Below, piece by piece: positions 28,210 to 46,644 of a stretch of 64,000 nt of DNA (position 1 is its first letter; each line of letters begins with the position of its first letter). A program made the position numbers and the translations under genes. The notes beneath the pieces were generated by a model. That model saw only the letters and a program-made list of their open reading frames with translations, did no database searches and was not told where the DNA came from. The stretch is from Pontibacter fetidus (GTDB lineage Bacteria; Bacteroidota; Bacteroidia; Cytophagales; Hymenobacteraceae): NCBI RefSeq assembly GCF_010119545.1, contig NZ_JAAEAA010000001.1:62001-126000 (forward strand). Reading direction: 5' to 3'.

Positions 28210-28308
28210 ATGCGCAACGCCACGTTACATAGCATCCTTTCTACTCCGGCAACTTCTGTTGCCTGTGGTACTGCTGCGCACGTACATCATTTCCATCATT
28301 CCTCGTAA
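28210..28308 (+). CDS. Histidine-rich leader peptide upstream of hisG
   Basis: A 32-residue ORF placed directly after a promoter-like -7 box and 105 nt before hisG. Five of its six His residues fall in the window His24-His30 (pattern H-V-H-H-F-H-H), just before two serines and the stop. Such clustering at the end of a short ORF in front of a his operon is the mark of a ribosome-sensing leader: lack of charged tRNA-His would stall the ribosome there. A short perfect stem-loop (ATTCCTC, loop GTAA, GAGGAAT; 28298-28315) straddles the stop codon, and GGCAAC/GTTGCC (28249-28264) forms another inside the ORF. I see no clear intrinsic terminator before hisG, so the output step is uncertain. A second His leader with a clear attenuator lies at 43506. 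Confidence 0.75.
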   Translation: MRNATLHSILSTPATSVACGTAAHVHHFHHSS

Positions 28309-28413
28309 GAGGAATCCAATTAACATATAGCCCCCGTTGGGTGTATACCCATTTTATACGTTGCAGGAAGCAGGGTATAGATCGCCTTTATTTTCATTTT
28401 CAGAACAAATTTT

Positions 28414-29265
28414 ATGCTTCGTATAGCCATACAAAAGTCAGGCAGGCTCAGTGATGATTCGCTTAAACTGATCCGTGAGTGCGGTATCTCGTTCATCAGC
28501 AGCAGCCTGAAACTAAAAACAGAATCCACTAATTTTCCGCTGGAGATTCTTTTTCTTCGCGACGATGATATTCCCGGTTATGTAGCCGACGGCGTGGCCG
28601 ATATTGGTATAGTTGGCCAGAATGTGCTGGTGGAAGAAGGCATGCAACACCTGACCGTAGAAGAGCTTGGTTTCTCGAAATGCCGCTTGTCGCTGGCCGT
28701 GCCCAAAGGCGACAACTATAGCTCTATCGAAGACCTGAACGGGAAGAACATTGCCACATCATACCCTAATTTACTGCAGTCTTACCTTTCAGAACGTGGC
28801 GTGCAAGCCAATATTCATACGATAAGCGGGTCGGTGGAGATCGCTCCAAGCATTGGCCTGGCTGATGCGATTTGTGATATAGTTAGTTCGGGCAGTACTC
28901 TTATCAGCAATGGTCTGAAGGAAGTGGAACGTGTGTTTAAGTCGCAGGCAGTGCTAATTGCAAACAAAGACCTTAATGCTGAGAAACAGGAAATACTGGA
29001 GAAACTTTTATTCCGGATACAATCCGTTCAGCGTGCCCAGCGTGCCAAGTATATCTTATTAAATGCCCCGAACGATAAAGTGGCTGAGATATCTAAGTTA
29101 CTACCGGGTGTGAAGTCGCCGACGGTTCTGCCGTTGCTGGAAGAAGGCTGGAGCTCATTGCACTCTGTTGTAAACGAAGACGATTTCTGGGACAAAATTG
29201 AAAAGCTGAAAGCGGCTGGTGCGCAGGGTATCCTGGTTGTTCCGATTGAGAAAATGATCATCTGA
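28414..29265 (+). CDS. hisG: ATP phosphoribosyltransferase, long form
   Basis: Encodes 283 residues of HisG, which joins ATP and PRPP in the first and committed step of histidine synthesis. LRIAIQKSGRLSDDSLKLI, DGVADIGIVGQNVLVEEG, and SVEIAPSIGLADAICDIVSSGSTL (PRPP-binding loop) are conserved. The last 70 residues (SPTVLPLLEEGWSSLHSVV...AAGAQGILVVPIEKM) are the ACT-like regulatory domain of the long form, so histidine feedback is expected and no HisZ is needed. The stop shares one base with the hisD start. Confidence 0.97.
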   Translation: MLRIAIQKSGRLSDDSLKLIRECGISFISSSLKLKTESTNFPLEILFLRDDDIPGYVADGVADIGIVGQNVLVEEGMQHLTVEELGFSKCRLSLAVPKGDNYSSIEDLNGKNIATSYPNLLQSYLSERGVQANIHTISGSVEIAPSIGLADAICDIVSSGSTLISNGLKEVERVFKSQAVLIANKDLNAEKQEILEKLLFRIQSVQRAQRAKYILLNAPNDKVAEISKLLPGVKSPTVLPLLEEGWSSLHSVVNEDDFWDKIEKLKAAGAQGILVVPIEKMII

Positions 29266-33043: not shown

Positions 33044-33130
33044 ATGAATCAGAATCTTCATCTTACTGCATGGTGGTGGCACGTTACAAAAAGTATCGTG
33101 AACAGCCTTGCTATGTATAAGATGAGATAA
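33044..33130 (+). CDS. trpL: Tryptophan leader peptide
   Basis: A 28-residue ORF between the trp promoter and trpE. Codons 10-12 are three consecutive TGG (Trp), a rare event by chance. Codons 19-21, GTG AAC AGC (33098-33106), are perfectly complementary to GCTGTTCAC at 33166-33174, which forms the 5' side of the terminator stem and loop that follows. This is the classical attenuator layout: fast translation leaves the terminator free to form, while a ribosome stalled on the Trp codons exposes the 9-nt antiterminator arm and lets transcription reach trpE. No Shine-Dalgarno site is visible, as usual in this phylum. Confidence 0.9.
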   Translation: MNQNLHLTAWWWHVTKSIVNSLAMYKMR

Positions 33131-33157
33131 ATGATATAGCATACAACCAAAGGTATT

Positions 33158-33192
33158 AAAAGCCTGCTGTTCACTGGACAGCAGGCTTTTTT
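33158..33192 (+). terminator. trp attenuator terminator
   Basis: AAAAGCCTGCTGT (33158-33170) pairs with ACAGCAGGCTTTT (33178-33190) around a TCACTGG loop and runs into six T. It lies 25 nt before trpE. GCTGTTCAC within its 5' side and loop can instead pair with the leader ORF arm at 33098-33106. Confidence 0.92.
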
Positions 33193-33217
33193 GTTTTCTA
33201 CGCATTCTAAACCAGAT

Positions 33218-41356: not shown

Positions 41357-43402
41357 TTAGTTGTTGGTTGGTTTCAGCGTCTCGTCGAGCCATTTAAAGA
41401 ACTCACTCTGCCAAACTATAGCGTTTTGCGGCTGTAGTACCCAGTGGTTCTCATCTGGTAAGTATAACAGGCGGCTCTTAATGCCTTTCAGCTGTGCCAA
41501 CTGGAATGCCTGCAGCCCTTGCTCAATACCCACACGGAAATCCTGGCCACCCTGAACGATCAGGATTGGGGTGTTCCATTTATTTGCGTGCTCGATCGGG
41601 TTAAACTCCTTATAAGCTTTTGGAGCTTTAGTATCCCAATAAGGGCCTTTCAGTTCGTTGTTTGCAAAGAAAAGCTCCTCGGTAGTGCCATACCAGCTGC
41701 GCATATCAAACAGACCGTCGTGGGCGATAAACGTTTTGAAGCGTCCTTCGTGCAGGCCTGCCAGCATAAATACGGAGTAACCACCATAGCTGGCACCAAC
41801 TGCACCCAGTCTGTCTTTGTCCACATATTTTTCTTTGGCTACATCATCAATCGCAGTCAGGTAATCGCGAATGGCCTGGCCGCCCCAGTCGCCACTGATC
41901 TGGCGGTTCCATTCGTCGCCGTGGCCCGGCATGCCGCGTCTGTTTGGTGCAACCACAATGTACCCATTAGCTGCCATCAGCTGCATGTTCCAGCGGTAAG
42001 AATAGTATTGTGTAAGCGCTGATTGAGGTCCGCCCTGGCAGTAAAGCAAGGTTGGGTACTTTTTGTTTGGGTCGAAATCTGGCGGATAAACAACCCACGA
42101 GAACAGGTCTTTGCCATCGGTAGCTTTGGTAATGCGTGGCTCAACTTTGCTCAGTGAAAGCTTGCTGTAAATTGCGTCATTAACATTGGTAAGTTGCGTT
42201 AGCTTACCAGATTTTGAGTCAACACGGAAAAGCTCTGCAGCGTGGTTCATGTCGGTGCGCGACACGATCAGGCTGTTACCTGACTGGCCAGCAATGTCAT
42301 TGATATCAAACTGGCCTTTCGTAACCTGCTTAATATTTTTAGCCGAGAACTTGCCCAGGTTTTTCGGTAACTCAACTTCAAAAAGCTGAATGGTACCTTT
42401 GGTAGGCGCTACAAACCAGATCTTGCTGCCATCTTTGCTCCAGGTAAACGAGTTTATAGTTTCGTCCCAGTCTTTGGTCAGGTTGTATTTTTTACCTGAT
42501 TTTACATCCGAAATGATCAGCTCATTCTGGTCAGCTTCGTTGCCGTCTTCATCCATTGCCAGCCAGGCCAGTTTTGTGCCGTCTTCGGAGTAAGCTGGTG
42601 CTGTGTCGTAGCCTTTGTTGCTTTCTGTATAGTTGCTCGTTTTACCAGAGGCCAGGTCATAGCGGTAAATATCGGTGTTGGTGCTAACTGCATATTCTTT
42701 ACCAAACTTCTTTTTGCTAACGTAAAGTATAGCTTTGCTATCCGGGCTCCAGATCATGTCTTCCAGTCCGCCGAAAGGCATTTGCGGTGTATCGTGTGGC
42801 TCACCTGGCATAATGTCGGTAGCCGTACCTATTTTGCCATCGTTGTAGGGAGCAAAGAAAACGTGCTGAAACTTACCATCTTCCCAGGTATCCCAGTGAC
42901 GGTAGTTCAGGTCGTCGTACACATAAGCGTTCGCTTTCTTAAGTTTTGGGTACATATCAGAGCTATGTACTTTTTTTACTTCCACCTCGCGCGAAAACAA
43001 CACATACTTTCCATCCGGAGAGAAGCGAATATTGCTCAGGCCGCCTTCAAAGTTGGTTAGTTGCTTCGGCTCGCCTTTTCCGCCGGTTAGTTGCCATAGT
43101 TGGCCTTTGTGCAGGTAAATGATGTTCCCGGCCTTGTCGATATGCACTACGCTTTCGCCACCCTTTGTAGAGGTGATCTGTGTTGGTTGTCCGCCAGTTA
43201 CGGGAATACGGTAGAGGTTTCGCTCGCTGCTGTTCTCGTCCATATTTACATAGCCAACACCGTATATTACCGATTTGCCATCGGGTGTTACCGTTTCAGC
43301 CGAAACACGGCCTAGTTTCCAGAGTAATTCCGGAGTCATGCGCTGTTGTGCCTGCGCCATAGTTACAGCAAACACGCCAGCAAGTACAAGTATCTTTTTC
43401 AT
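41357..43402 (-). CDS. Secreted S9-family prolyl oligopeptidase-like peptidase
   Basis: Encodes 681 residues. A signal peptide (MKKILVLAGVFAVTMAQAQ) is followed by a beta-propeller built of WD40-like/PD40 blades (NIRFSPDGKYVLFS, MIWSPDSKAILYVS, FTWSKDGSKIWFV) to about residue 410, then an alpha/beta-hydrolase domain. The nucleophilic Ser is in GAVGASYGGYSVF, the Asp in LIVQGGQDFRV and the His in LPDENHWVLQP. It should cleave short peptides in the periplasm and is most similar in layout to dipeptidyl-peptidase 5 / acylaminoacyl-peptidase enzymes; exact specificity cannot be read. It has its own promoter and terminator and separates the trp operon from the second his cluster. Confidence 0.92.
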   Translation of the reverse strand: MKKILVLAGVFAVTMAQAQQRMTPELLWKLGRVSAETVTPDGKSVIYGVGYVNMDENSSERNLYRIPVTGGQPTQITSTKGGESVVHIDKAGNIIYLHKGQLWQLTGGKGEPKQLTNFEGGLSNIRFSPDGKYVLFSREVEVKKVHSSDMYPKLKKANAYVYDDLNYRHWDTWEDGKFQHVFFAPYNDGKIGTATDIMPGEPHDTPQMPFGGLEDMIWSPDSKAILYVSKKKFGKEYAVSTNTDIYRYDLASGKTSNYTESNKGYDTAPAYSEDGTKLAWLAMDEDGNEADQNELIISDVKSGKKYNLTKDWDETINSFTWSKDGSKIWFVAPTKGTIQLFEVELPKNLGKFSAKNIKQVTKGQFDINDIAGQSGNSLIVSRTDMNHAAELFRVDSKSGKLTQLTNVNDAIYSKLSLSKVEPRITKATDGKDLFSWVVYPPDFDPNKKYPTLLYCQGGPQSALTQYYSYRWNMQLMAANGYIVVAPNRRGMPGHGDEWNRQISGDWGGQAIRDYLTAIDDVAKEKYVDKDRLGAVGASYGGYSVFMLAGLHEGRFKTFIAHDGLFDMRSWYGTTEELFFANNELKGPYWDTKAPKAYKEFNPIEHANKWNTPILIVQGGQDFRVGIEQGLQAFQLAQLKGIKSRLLYLPDENHWVLQPQNAIVWQSEFFKWLDETLKPTNN

Positions 43403-43492: not shown

Positions 43493-43500
43493 TATATTTG
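43493..43500 (+). promoter_or_regulatory. Promoter -7 box of the hisH leader
   Basis: TATATTTG matches TAnnTTTG and ends 5 nt before the His leader ATG, so the leader ORF would be translated from a nearly leaderless mRNA. TTTG at 43466-43469 is a -33 candidate with a long 23-nt spacer. Confidence 0.6.
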
Positions 43501-43505
43501 CAGCA

Positions 43506-43586
43506 ATGAAAGGCACAATGGCTCATATGCACCATCATCATGCACGAAGCAACAGTTTCGGAGCCGCTTGCCTATGGATTTGCTAG
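43506..43586 (+). CDS. Histidine leader peptide upstream of hisH
   Basis: A 26-residue ORF with His at position 7 and four consecutive His codons at 9-12 (pattern H-M-H-H-H-H). Bases 43555-43563, GTTTCGGAG, lie five codons past the last His and are perfectly complementary to CTCCGAAAC at 43618-43626, the end of the 5' stem plus the loop of the following terminator. A ribosome stalled at the His run would free this arm to form an antiterminator; a ribosome reading to the stop would cover it. The geometry matches the trp leader at 33044. No Shine-Dalgarno site is visible. Confidence 0.9.
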   Translation: MKGTMAHMHHHHARSNSFGAACLWIC

Positions 43587-43606
43587 AAGTATAAACGTAT
43601 ATATCC

Positions 43607-43641
43607 AAAAAGCCTGACTCCGAAACGAGTCAGGCTTTTTT
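43607..43641 (+). terminator. his attenuator terminator
   Basis: AAAAAGCCTGACTC pairs with GAGTCAGGCTTTTT around the loop CGAAAC, followed by T-rich sequence. The 5' side and loop compete for pairing with the leader ORF arm at 43555-43563. hisH starts about 190 nt downstream. Confidence 0.93.
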
Positions 43642-43705
43642 GTTTTAGTCTGAATCAGGATTTTCAGGATTTGGAAGGATATACAGGATGTAAACTTTAT
43701 CAGTA

Positions 43706-43794
43706 CTGGCGCGGAAGTTTCTTCCGTGTCGGAGTATAAAAGCGAATCTGAGATTCGCAACTATAGCAAGGCACGAAAATGATTTTCGCGCCAG
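43706..43794. repeat. 89-bp palindromic repeat, copy A (upstream of hisH)
   Basis: The ends CTGGCGCG and CGCGCCAG are complementary, the arms continue with mismatches (GGAAG...CTTCCGTG against GCACGAAAATG...), and the centre holds the perfect stem GCGAATC/GATTCGC. Copy B at 45887-45974 is nearly identical, differing at only a few bases. It lies between the his attenuator and hisH, so it is probably transcribed as a long hairpin. Confidence 0.88.
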
Positions 43795-43828
43795 AACTTT
43801 AAACTTTTAACTCTAAACTCTTAACTAA

Positions 43829-44410
43829 ATGAATCTGGTTATAGTTGATTACAAGGCTGGTAACGTGCAGTCGGTGATGTTTGCGCTGGAGCGGCTGGGT
43901 ATAAATGCTACCCTGAGCTGCGACTTCGAAACTATAAAGTCGGCTGACAAGGTGATCTTCCCGGGCGTAGGCGAAGCTTCGTCAGCCATGACCCAACTGA
44001 AGTCCCGCAACCTGGACAAGCTGTTACCGACACTGGAGCAACCCTTTTTTGGCGTTTGTCTGGGCATGCAGCTGCTTTGCCAGCACTCCGAAGAAGGCAA
44101 TACCGATCTTTTGGGAATTATTCCGTTGCCGGTGAAGCGAATTGAGACAGACCTGAAAGTACCGCACATGGGCTGGAACCAGCTGGAGAACTTACAGTCG
44201 CCACTTTTTGTAGGTATAAAAGAGCAGGACTTTGTATACTATGTACACAGTTATTACGTGCCGATGAGTGAGTATACCATTGCCCAGACTTCGTACCCGG
44301 AGCCATTTTCGGCTGCTTTACACTATAAAAACTTTTACGCTGCGCAGTTTCACCCTGAAAAAAGCGGACCTGCAGGCTCTCAAATCCTGAAAAACTTTTT
44401 AGCCCTATGA
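43829..44410 (+). CDS. hisH: Imidazole glycerol phosphate synthase, glutamine amidotransferase subunit
   Basis: Encodes 193 residues. VIVDYKAGNVQSV is the N-terminus of HisH, the Cys nucleophile is in FFGVCLGMQLL, and the His-Glu pair is in AAQFHPEKSGPAG. It delivers ammonia to HisF. The gene starts 34 nt after repeat copy A and overlaps hisA by 4 nt. It is the first gene of the second his cluster, which is controlled by the leader at 43506. Confidence 0.96.
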   Translation: MNLVIVDYKAGNVQSVMFALERLGINATLSCDFETIKSADKVIFPGVGEASSAMTQLKSRNLDKLLPTLEQPFFGVCLGMQLLCQHSEEGNTDLLGIIPLPVKRIETDLKVPHMGWNQLENLQSPLFVGIKEQDFVYYVHSYYVPMSEYTIAQTSYPEPFSAALHYKNFYAAQFHPEKSGPAGSQILKNFLAL

Positions 44411-45129
44411 TGGAGATCATCCCAGCAATAGACATAATTGGCGGCCAGTGCGTACGCCTCACCGAAGGCGACTTTGCCCAGCAAACCACTTACGACAGTA
44501 ACCCGCTGGAAGTAGCCAAACGATTCGAAGCGCATGGTATTAAGCGCCTACATTTAGTTGACCTGGATGGTGCCCGCGCCAAGAAACCCGTGAACCTGGC
44601 CGTATTGGAGACTATAGCTGCCAACACTAACTTAACGATTGATTTTGGCGGTGGCTTGCAGTCTGATGAGGCGGTAAAGCAGGCATTTGATGCGGGTGCC
44701 ACCCATATCACAGCCGGAAGTATAGCCGTGCGCGAACCTGAAACGGTTAAGAACTGGCTGATAAAGTATGGTCCGGAAAAGATCATCATCGGGGCAGATT
44801 TCAAAGGTACCAACATTGCCATCAGCGCCTGGACCGAAGAAAGCAAATACCCGCTGCAGGATTTTATATCTGGCTATGTAAAAACGGGTGCCAAGCTGTT
44901 TATCTGCACCGATGTGAGCAAAGACGGAAAACTGCAGGGGCCATCCATCAACACGTATCGTCACCTTAAACTTGCCTTACCCGAAGCAGATATTATTGCC
45001 AGTGGCGGTGTTACAACTATAGCTGACCTGGAGCAGTTGCAGGAAATTGGTGTAGCCGGTGCAATCATCGGTAAAGCCATTTATGAAGGCACTATATTAT
45101 TGAAAGACTTAGCGCGATTTATATGTTAA
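44407..45129 (+). CDS. hisA: ProFAR isomerase
   Basis: Encodes 240 residues of the TIM-barrel sugar isomerase. [20 protein letters not shown] carries the catalytic Asp near the N-terminus, with [38 protein letters not shown] (second catalytic Asp) and IIASGGVTT following. Two adjacent ATG codons (44407 and 44410) could both serve; the first overlaps the hisH stop. It overlaps hisF by 7 nt. Confidence 0.96.
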
Positions 45130-45881
45130 CCAAACGCATTATTCCCTGCCTGGATATTAAAGACGGCCGTACCGTAAAGGGTATTCAGTTTGAGAACATC
45201 AGGGATGCAGGCGACCCGGTAGAACTGGCCAAATGGTATGCCGAGCAAGGAGCTGACGAACTGGTTTTCCTGGACATTACCGCTACCAATGAAGAGCGCA
45301 AGACCTTTGCCGAACTGGTGCGCGATATTGCGCGCCACATCGACATTCCGTTTACCGTGGGTGGTGGCATCAGCTCGGTGGCCGACGTGGAAGTATTACT
45401 GATGGCAGGTGCTGATAAGGTATCTATCAATTCATCTGCTATCCGCAACCCGGAGCTAGTGAGAGAATTAGCCGACCGTTTTGGCAGCCAGTGTGTGACT
45501 GTAGCCATCGACACCAAATATACAGAAGTCAGCGGCTGGAAGGTATATACCCGTGCCGGAACTATAGAAACTGAATGGGCAACTATAGCCTGGGCTAAAA
45601 AAGTGGTAGAACTGGGTGCCGGCGAGATTCTGCTGACAAGTATGAACAACGATGGTACCAAAGCAGGTTTTGCACTGGATATTACCAAAGCGGTTTCAGA
45701 AGCTGTTTCGGTTCCGGTAATTGCCTCAGGCGGTGCAGGCAACATGCAGCATTTTGCAGATGCTTTTAACAGCGCTCATGCCGATGCCGCTTTAGCTGCC
45801 AGCCTGTTTCATTTCCGAGAACTGGGAATACCTGAACTAAAGCGGTTTCTGAAATTGCAGGGGGTAGATATAAGAATATAG
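45123..45881 (+). CDS. hisF: Imidazole glycerol phosphate synthase, cyclase subunit
   Basis: Encodes 252 residues of the cyclase partner of His[21 protein letters not shown] carries catalytic Asp11, with [40 protein letters not shown] (second catalytic Asp) and [13 protein letters not shown]. Length is normal. It overlaps hisA by 7 nt; repeat copy B follows 5 nt after its stop. Confidence 0.97.
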
Positions 45882-45886
45882 AATTT

Positions 45887-45974
45887 CTGGCGCGGAAGTT
45901 ACTTTCGTGTCGAAATATAAAAGCGAATCTGAGATTCGCAACTGTAGCAAGGCACGAAAATAATTTTCGCGCCA
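45887..45974. repeat. 88-bp palindromic repeat, copy B (between hisF and hisIE)
   Basis: Same layout as copy A: CTGGCGCGGAAGTT at the left, central GCGAATC/GATTCGC stem, and AATTTTCGCGCCA at the right. The two copies differ only at scattered positions, some of which keep base pairing (for example the TTACTTTCGTG arm). It begins 5 nt after the hisF stop. Confidence 0.88.
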
Positions 45975-46035: not shown

Positions 46036-46644
46036 ATGTTGGATTTCGATAAAATGGGCGGATTGGTGCCCGCTATAATTCAGGACGAGCATACCAGCCA
46101 GGTACTGATGTTGGGTTACATGAACCAGGAAGCACTTGATAAAACACGGCAGGAGGGACTTGTAACCTTCTTTTCCCGCTCCAAAAACCGCCTCTGGACT
46201 AAAGGAGAAACCTCTGGTAATACACTGCAGGTGGTAAGTATAGCCGAAGACTGCGACAACGATTCTATACTCATAAAAGTAAAGCCTAACGGCCCAACCT
46301 GCCATACCGGAGCAACCAGTTGTTTTGGCGAAGAACAGACTGCTAAAAGAGCAAAAGCGATTCAGTTTATCGCTCAACTGGAAGAGGTAATACAACAACG
46401 CAAAGCCAATCCGGCAGAAGGCTCTTATACAAATTTCCTGTACGAAAAAGGTATAAACAAGATAGCGCAGAAAGTAGGGGAGGAAGCCGTAGAAACTGTT
46501 ATTGATGCGGTGGCTGGTAAATTAGATACCATGAAAGGCGAGGCGGCAGACCTGATCTACCACCTGTTGGTGCTATTGGCTGCAACTGGCTTAGAACTGG
46601 CCGATGTGGTAACTGTGTTGCAGGAGCGCCATCAGAAGAAATAA
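46036..46644 (+). CDS. hisI: Bifunctional phosphoribosyl-AMP cyclohydrolase / phosphoribosyl-ATP pyrophosphatase
   Basis: Encodes 202 residues with both early his activities fused (HisIE). Residues 1-110 are the cyclohydrolase (MLGYMNQEAL, SRSKNRLWTKGETSGN, DCDNDSILIKV, PTCHTGATSCF with zinc-binding cysteines). Residues 125-200 are the pyrophosphatase (NFLYEKGINKIAQKVGEEAVETVIDA). The 154-nt gap to hisF holds repeat copy B and low-complexity CTTTCTAAC words. A bidirectional terminator follows. Confidence 0.96.
   Translation: MLDFDKMGGLVPAIIQDEHTSQVLMLGYMNQEALDKTRQEGLVTFFSRSKNRLWTKGETSGNTLQVVSIAEDCDNDSILIKVKPNGPTCHTGATSCFGEEQTAKRAKAIQFIAQLEEVIQQRKANPAEGSYTNFLYEKGINKIAQKVGEEAVETVIDAVAGKLDTMKGEAADLIYHLLVLLAATGLELADVVTVLQERHQKK

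Follow-up and report, generated by a model that had tools for sequence, protein, structure and literature searches.

In the window (the whole stretch of 64,000 nucleotides of Pontibacter fetidus DNA that was analysed), the genes hisHAF-hisIE are preceded by a short His-rich reading frame and an intrinsic terminator, and the question raised by this locus is whether the two form a switch that ties transcription of these genes to the supply of histidine. With high confidence, the leader is a ribosome-mediated transcription attenuator sensing charged tRNA-His. It has an ORF with cognate codons, a terminator before the first gene, and a mutually exclusive antiterminator together with a blocking 1:2 hairpin, which were both computed and found conserved. 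The features are collected in Table 1.

Table 1. Features of the hisH leader and of the his genes behind it (positions in the window)
Feature	Position	Strand	Basis
-7 promoter box TATATTTG, TAnnTTTG type of Bacteroidota	43493-43500	+	sequence; 36/36 aligned species, 4-7 nt before leader ATG
Leader ORF MKGTMAHMHHHHARSNSFGAACLWIC, 26 codons + TAG	43506-43586	+	sequence; peptide conserved across genus
His control codons CAT ATG CAC CAT CAT CAT	43524-43541	+	His kept, CAT/CAC vary, n = 44 sequences
1:2 hairpin CGAAGC-AACA-GUUUCG, directly 3' of His codons	43545-43560	+	269/270 cells paired, 45 sequences
Region 2, antiterminator 5' arm GUUUCGGAG, core CGGAG	43555-43563	+	codons TTC, GGA frozen, 44/44
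Antiterminator inner helix UGGAU (43575-43579) : AUCCA (43603-43607)	43575-43607	+	paired in most sequences
Intrinsic terminator, stem 43608-43620 / 43627-43639, U run 43636-43641	43608-43641	+	sequence, folding, helix alignment
Region 3 CUCCGAAAC in terminator	43618-43626	+	sequence
hisH	43829-44410	+	NCBIfam TIGR01855 above cut-off
hisA	44407-45129	+	NCBIfam TIGR00007 above cut-off
hisF	45123-45881	+	NCBIfam TIGR00735 above cut-off
hisIE	46036-46644	+	NCBIfam NF002747 above cut-off

The promoter box, the ATG at 43506 and the 26-codon ORF were found where the original prediction had placed them, with 5 nt between box and ATG, and the H-M-H-H-H-H run was confirmed as leader codons 7-12. The terminator ends at U43641, as claimed, the arm said to lie five codons past the control codons begins within the fifth codon after the last His, and the identity given for the four downstream genes was borne out by their NCBIfam scores. 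The pairing proposed between GTTTCGGAG (43555-43563) and CTCCGAAAC (43618-43626) is complementary in this genome, and a perfect 9-nt complement between the ORF and the terminator 5' arm or loop arose by chance in 54 of 20,000 shuffles. Variation in the terminator loop keeps the full 9 bp from being general. Each of the outer three U-A pairs is retained in part of the 45 sequences (36, 33 and 25), and only the CGGAG:CTCCG core is general. The 1:2 hairpin (CGAARC:GUUUCG), the inner helix UGGAU:AUCCA, just inside which the leader stop codon TAG (43584-43586) lies, and a further His-rich leader before hisG had been missed. The leader RNA as a whole folds with z = -5.1 against shuffles, none of 200 shuffles being as good. 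The spacing between box and ATG is 5 nt in nearly all of 36 species and 4-7 nt overall, which makes leaderless translation of the leader ORF plausible from the sequence.

The hairpin at 43608-43641 was also considered as the terminator of an upstream gene, and this was rejected: the neighbour, dipeptidyl-peptidase Dpp5 (41357-43402), is encoded on the opposite strand, so that the terminator belongs to no upstream gene and is placed between the promoter and its own operon. In the same region, a repeat with inverted ends (CTGGCGCG...CGCGCCAG) was observed at 43704-43802, after the attenuator, and at 45887-45974, between hisF and hisIE; it has seven full or partial matches in the genome.

The conservation on which the original prediction was staked was found in a comparative search, with both the His run and the complementary arms conserved across the genus and the His run weakened in a few species. 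With a covariance model built from 28 leaders upstream of hisH, the leader was detected in all 50 Pontibacter-genus genomes searched. A direct scan upstream of hisH detected it in 36 of 37 same-genus genomes, and the one species missed because of its weak His run (G002) was recovered with the covariance model. Among named records, all 38 Pontibacter and Botryobacter loci carry the leader; no His leader was found before hisH in 11 Rufibacter/Sabulibacter loci or in the upstream regions of 13 order-level genomes. The control run is reduced to H-M-H-Y-H in one species (L081), and two species have HHHP. In L034, L036, L052 and L064, a single His codon of the run has become a Pro codon (CAT to CCT) or a Tyr codon (CAC/CAT to TAC/TAT).

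The non-His tail of the leader peptide (F-G-A-x-C-L-W) is conserved as well, as would also be expected if the ORF encoded a functional small protein, e.g., a metal-binding, His-rich one, with the terminator ending its own transcript and hisH transcribed from another promoter. This explanation is very improbable in view of the codons. Across 44 sequences, His is retained with few exceptions at all four positions of the run and CAT and CAC are mixed at each of them, but CGA, TTC and GGA, the codons of the pairing arms, show no change in any of the 44, synonymous positions included; in hisH of the same species, used as a control, frozen codons amount to 3 of 123 among conserved residues. This indicates selection on the run for its coding of His and on the arms as RNA. 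In addition, the arms are complementary to the terminator and the conserved tail coincides with the pairing strands. The gap between terminator and hisH (187 nt in the window) is not conserved among species, ranging from 824 nt down to 61 nt, a second TAnnTTTG box was found in just 3 of 37 such gaps, and the leader always adjoins hisH.

The helices of the proposed attenuator were then compared base pair by base pair. In the 1:2 hairpin (CGAARC-N4-GUUUCG), the loop codons are variable and a G-U/A-U exchange occurs at pair 5, and the antiterminator core CGGAG:CUCCG is paired in 224 of 225 cells (45 sequences). In the UGGAU:AUCCA helix, G-C to G-U changes were observed, and in L013 a G-C pair is replaced on both sides by A-U. 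No covariation was observed in the antiterminator core within the genus, where the core helix is invariant (45 sequences). Since there is too little core variation in the genus, frozen synonymous sites were used as evidence instead, and the pairing rests on these frozen codons, on computed folding and on related leaders rather than on covariation in the set. The related leaders are matches of the covariance model before phenylalanine hydroxylase genes (phhA) in related genomes, in which two-sided changes of the same antiterminator helix were found, CGGAAU:AUUCCG (L084) and UUUUGGA:UCCAAAA (L085), whether homologous or convergent.

To compute the switch, the nascent RNA of 44 sequences was folded with ribosome footprints masked. 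The antiterminator reached a median of 0.96-1.00 when a ribosome occupied any of the last four His codons, compared with 0.04 for RNA free of ribosomes and 0.01 for a ribosome at the stop codon; in the latter two states the 1:2 hairpin reached a median of 0.95-0.96. In this computation, the arm is thus freed by a stall on the control codons but not by a ribosome at the stop codon. In the full-length RNA at equilibrium, the terminator is the winning structure wherever the ribosome is placed, even when it is stalled, so that the switch must be kinetic and decided during transcription. The E. coli his attenuator, used as a control in the same calculation, behaves alike, its terminator likewise winning at equilibrium, and the equilibrium result is therefore no objection.

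We infer a transcription start about 0-3 nt before the leader ATG, a coupling of ribosome and polymerase, and a cellular response to histidine, according to which the attenuator would work as follows. RNA polymerase would start at that point and a ribosome would load on the near-leaderless mRNA. When histidine is plentiful, the ribosome would reach the stop codon and cover the UGGAU strand, the 1:2 hairpin would reform behind it and hold region 2, and the terminator would form, ending transcription near 43641. Under a shortage of charged tRNA-His, the ribosome would stall on the His codons and cover CGAAGC, and region 2 (GUUUCGGAG) would pair with the emerging region 3 (CUCCGAAAC), aided by UGGAU:AUCCA; the terminator could then not nucleate, and the polymerase would read into hisH.

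Working attenuation must yield a leader RNA that is terminated after about 137 nt, and the leader might in principle act mainly through such a trans-acting small RNA or its peptide, with attenuation secondary, as in rnTrpL/peTrpL of Sinorhizobium meliloti, for which trans functions have been reported and whose trpL ORF is leaderless, too (PMC7298713). For the hisH leader this is extremely unlikely, as nothing at the locus points to a trans target and the cis anatomy is sufficient. Nor does the structured 5' leader before his genes appear to be a T-box or riboswitch that binds tRNA or a metabolite and senses histidine without translation, an explanation of almost negligible probability: the control codons of a translated ORF are conserved, and in the comparison with Rfam no family reached its gathering score, the best sub-threshold match being Thr_leader (28.2 vs a cut-off of 55), mainly over the terminator.

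The position of the attenuator coincides with a division of the his operon. In the window, hisG lies at 28414 and hisH at 43829, with the trp genes between them, and the distance is about 15-17 kb in the ten Pontibacter genomes examined. In other genera of the family with both genes located, the distance is about 4-6 kb, as for a single operon, and in Rufibacter hisH directly follows hisB; among these genera, Pontibacter alone has hisHAF-IE separated from hisGDCB. The hisH attenuator is a clear case, by correlation, of an attenuator restricted to a split operon, and we infer that it was gained when the operon split.

Before hisG, a leader at 28210-28308 encodes the His-rich peptide MRNATLHSILSTPATSVACGTAAHVHHFHHSS (ending HVHHFHHSS), whose stop codon is placed within a hairpin loop (AUUCCUC-GUAA-GAGGAAU, 28298-28315); CAUAUAGCCCCC comes after the hairpin. 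No strong intrinsic terminator was found after this hairpin in the window on to 28414, and no Rfam match was found for the hisG leader. All 25 genomes of the family that were examined have a His cluster before hisG, and nearly all of them share the hairpin. Similar hisG leaders are present in another two families of this order, in one of which the hairpin is kept by compensatory changes (AUUCUCC:GGAGAAU in L284; also L287). In two families besides these, hisG is preceded by an ordinary His-run attenuator that has a terminator (L282, L290). A tentative reading, to which we give slightly less than even confidence, is that the split halves are read by two different His-sensing leaders. The one for hisGDCB would be older and found beyond the family, with its stop codon in a conserved hairpin, no strong intrinsic terminator and a hitherto undescribed mechanism; the one for hisHAF-IE would be a classical attenuator that the genus acquired at the split.

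Other leaders were met in the searches. In Pontibacter and in other genera, phenylalanine hydroxylase genes are preceded by Tyr-rich leader peptides with terminators, of several different designs (L238, on contig C45 of the same genome; also L239-L249, L084, L085 and L250-L255). In one genus (g25; L208-L216, L221, L223-L225 and others), conserved leader peptides such as MFNYSAKQVCLTNIRPMQDEVGLHCRYGS, with terminators, precede phenylalanine hydroxylase and are without an obvious control-codon run. Pro-containing leader ORFs with terminators were found before ORFs recognised by eye as putative magnesium transporter MgtE (L086, L087, L088).

Compared with hisL of E. coli and Salmonella (Rfam His_leader), the Pontibacter hisH leader shares the His-run peptide, the alternative 1:2, antiterminator and terminator structures and the cognate biosynthetic genes downstream. 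It differs in having no sequence or Rfam similarity to hisL, a single 1:2 / 2:3 / 3:4 set, and a start that is near-leaderless, in a phylum that makes little use of Shine-Dalgarno sites. It also stands before hisH and the second half of a split operon, and not before hisG. The trp leader of the same window (33044-33130) was rightly described as being of the same design, with an arm in the ORF that pairs with the top of the terminator 5' arm and the loop, and a terminator just before the first gene, but it carries Trp codons and its ATG is about 36 nt from the promoter box, so that it is not leaderless. Together with its terminator the trp leader spans 33044-33193 (MNQNLHLTAWWWHVTKSIVNSLAMYKMR), and its arm GUGAACAGC pairs with GCUGUUCAC.

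Among published systems, the S. meliloti trpL attenuator has a leaderless ORF as here and differs in sensing Trp, in belonging to the Alphaproteobacteria and in its reported trans functions (PMC7298713). Within the phylum, leader-peptide attenuation of amino-acid biosynthesis operons has been inferred from transcript data in Flavobacterium psychrophilum, and a structured 5' element was noted before hisG in Flavobacteriaceae (PMC9723704); that work concerns another class, and hisH is not mentioned in the accessible part of the article. No description of a his attenuator in Pontibacter or before hisH was found in the open literature, to which the search was confined, subscription journals, including a 2010 attenuation survey (Lopatovskaya et al., cited in PMC4833913), lying outside it. 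The mechanism is of the known his/trp kind; the Pontibacter hisH case is newly found, and leader-peptide attenuation had already been inferred in the phylum.

Classical attenuation requires that the ribosome track RNA polymerase closely, and Bacteroidota genes are mostly without Shine-Dalgarno sites. The hisH leader provides strong comparative evidence that classical attenuation is used in Bacteroidota, and it offers a compact natural reporter with which to follow, in this phylum, both leaderless initiation and the coupling of transcription to translation.
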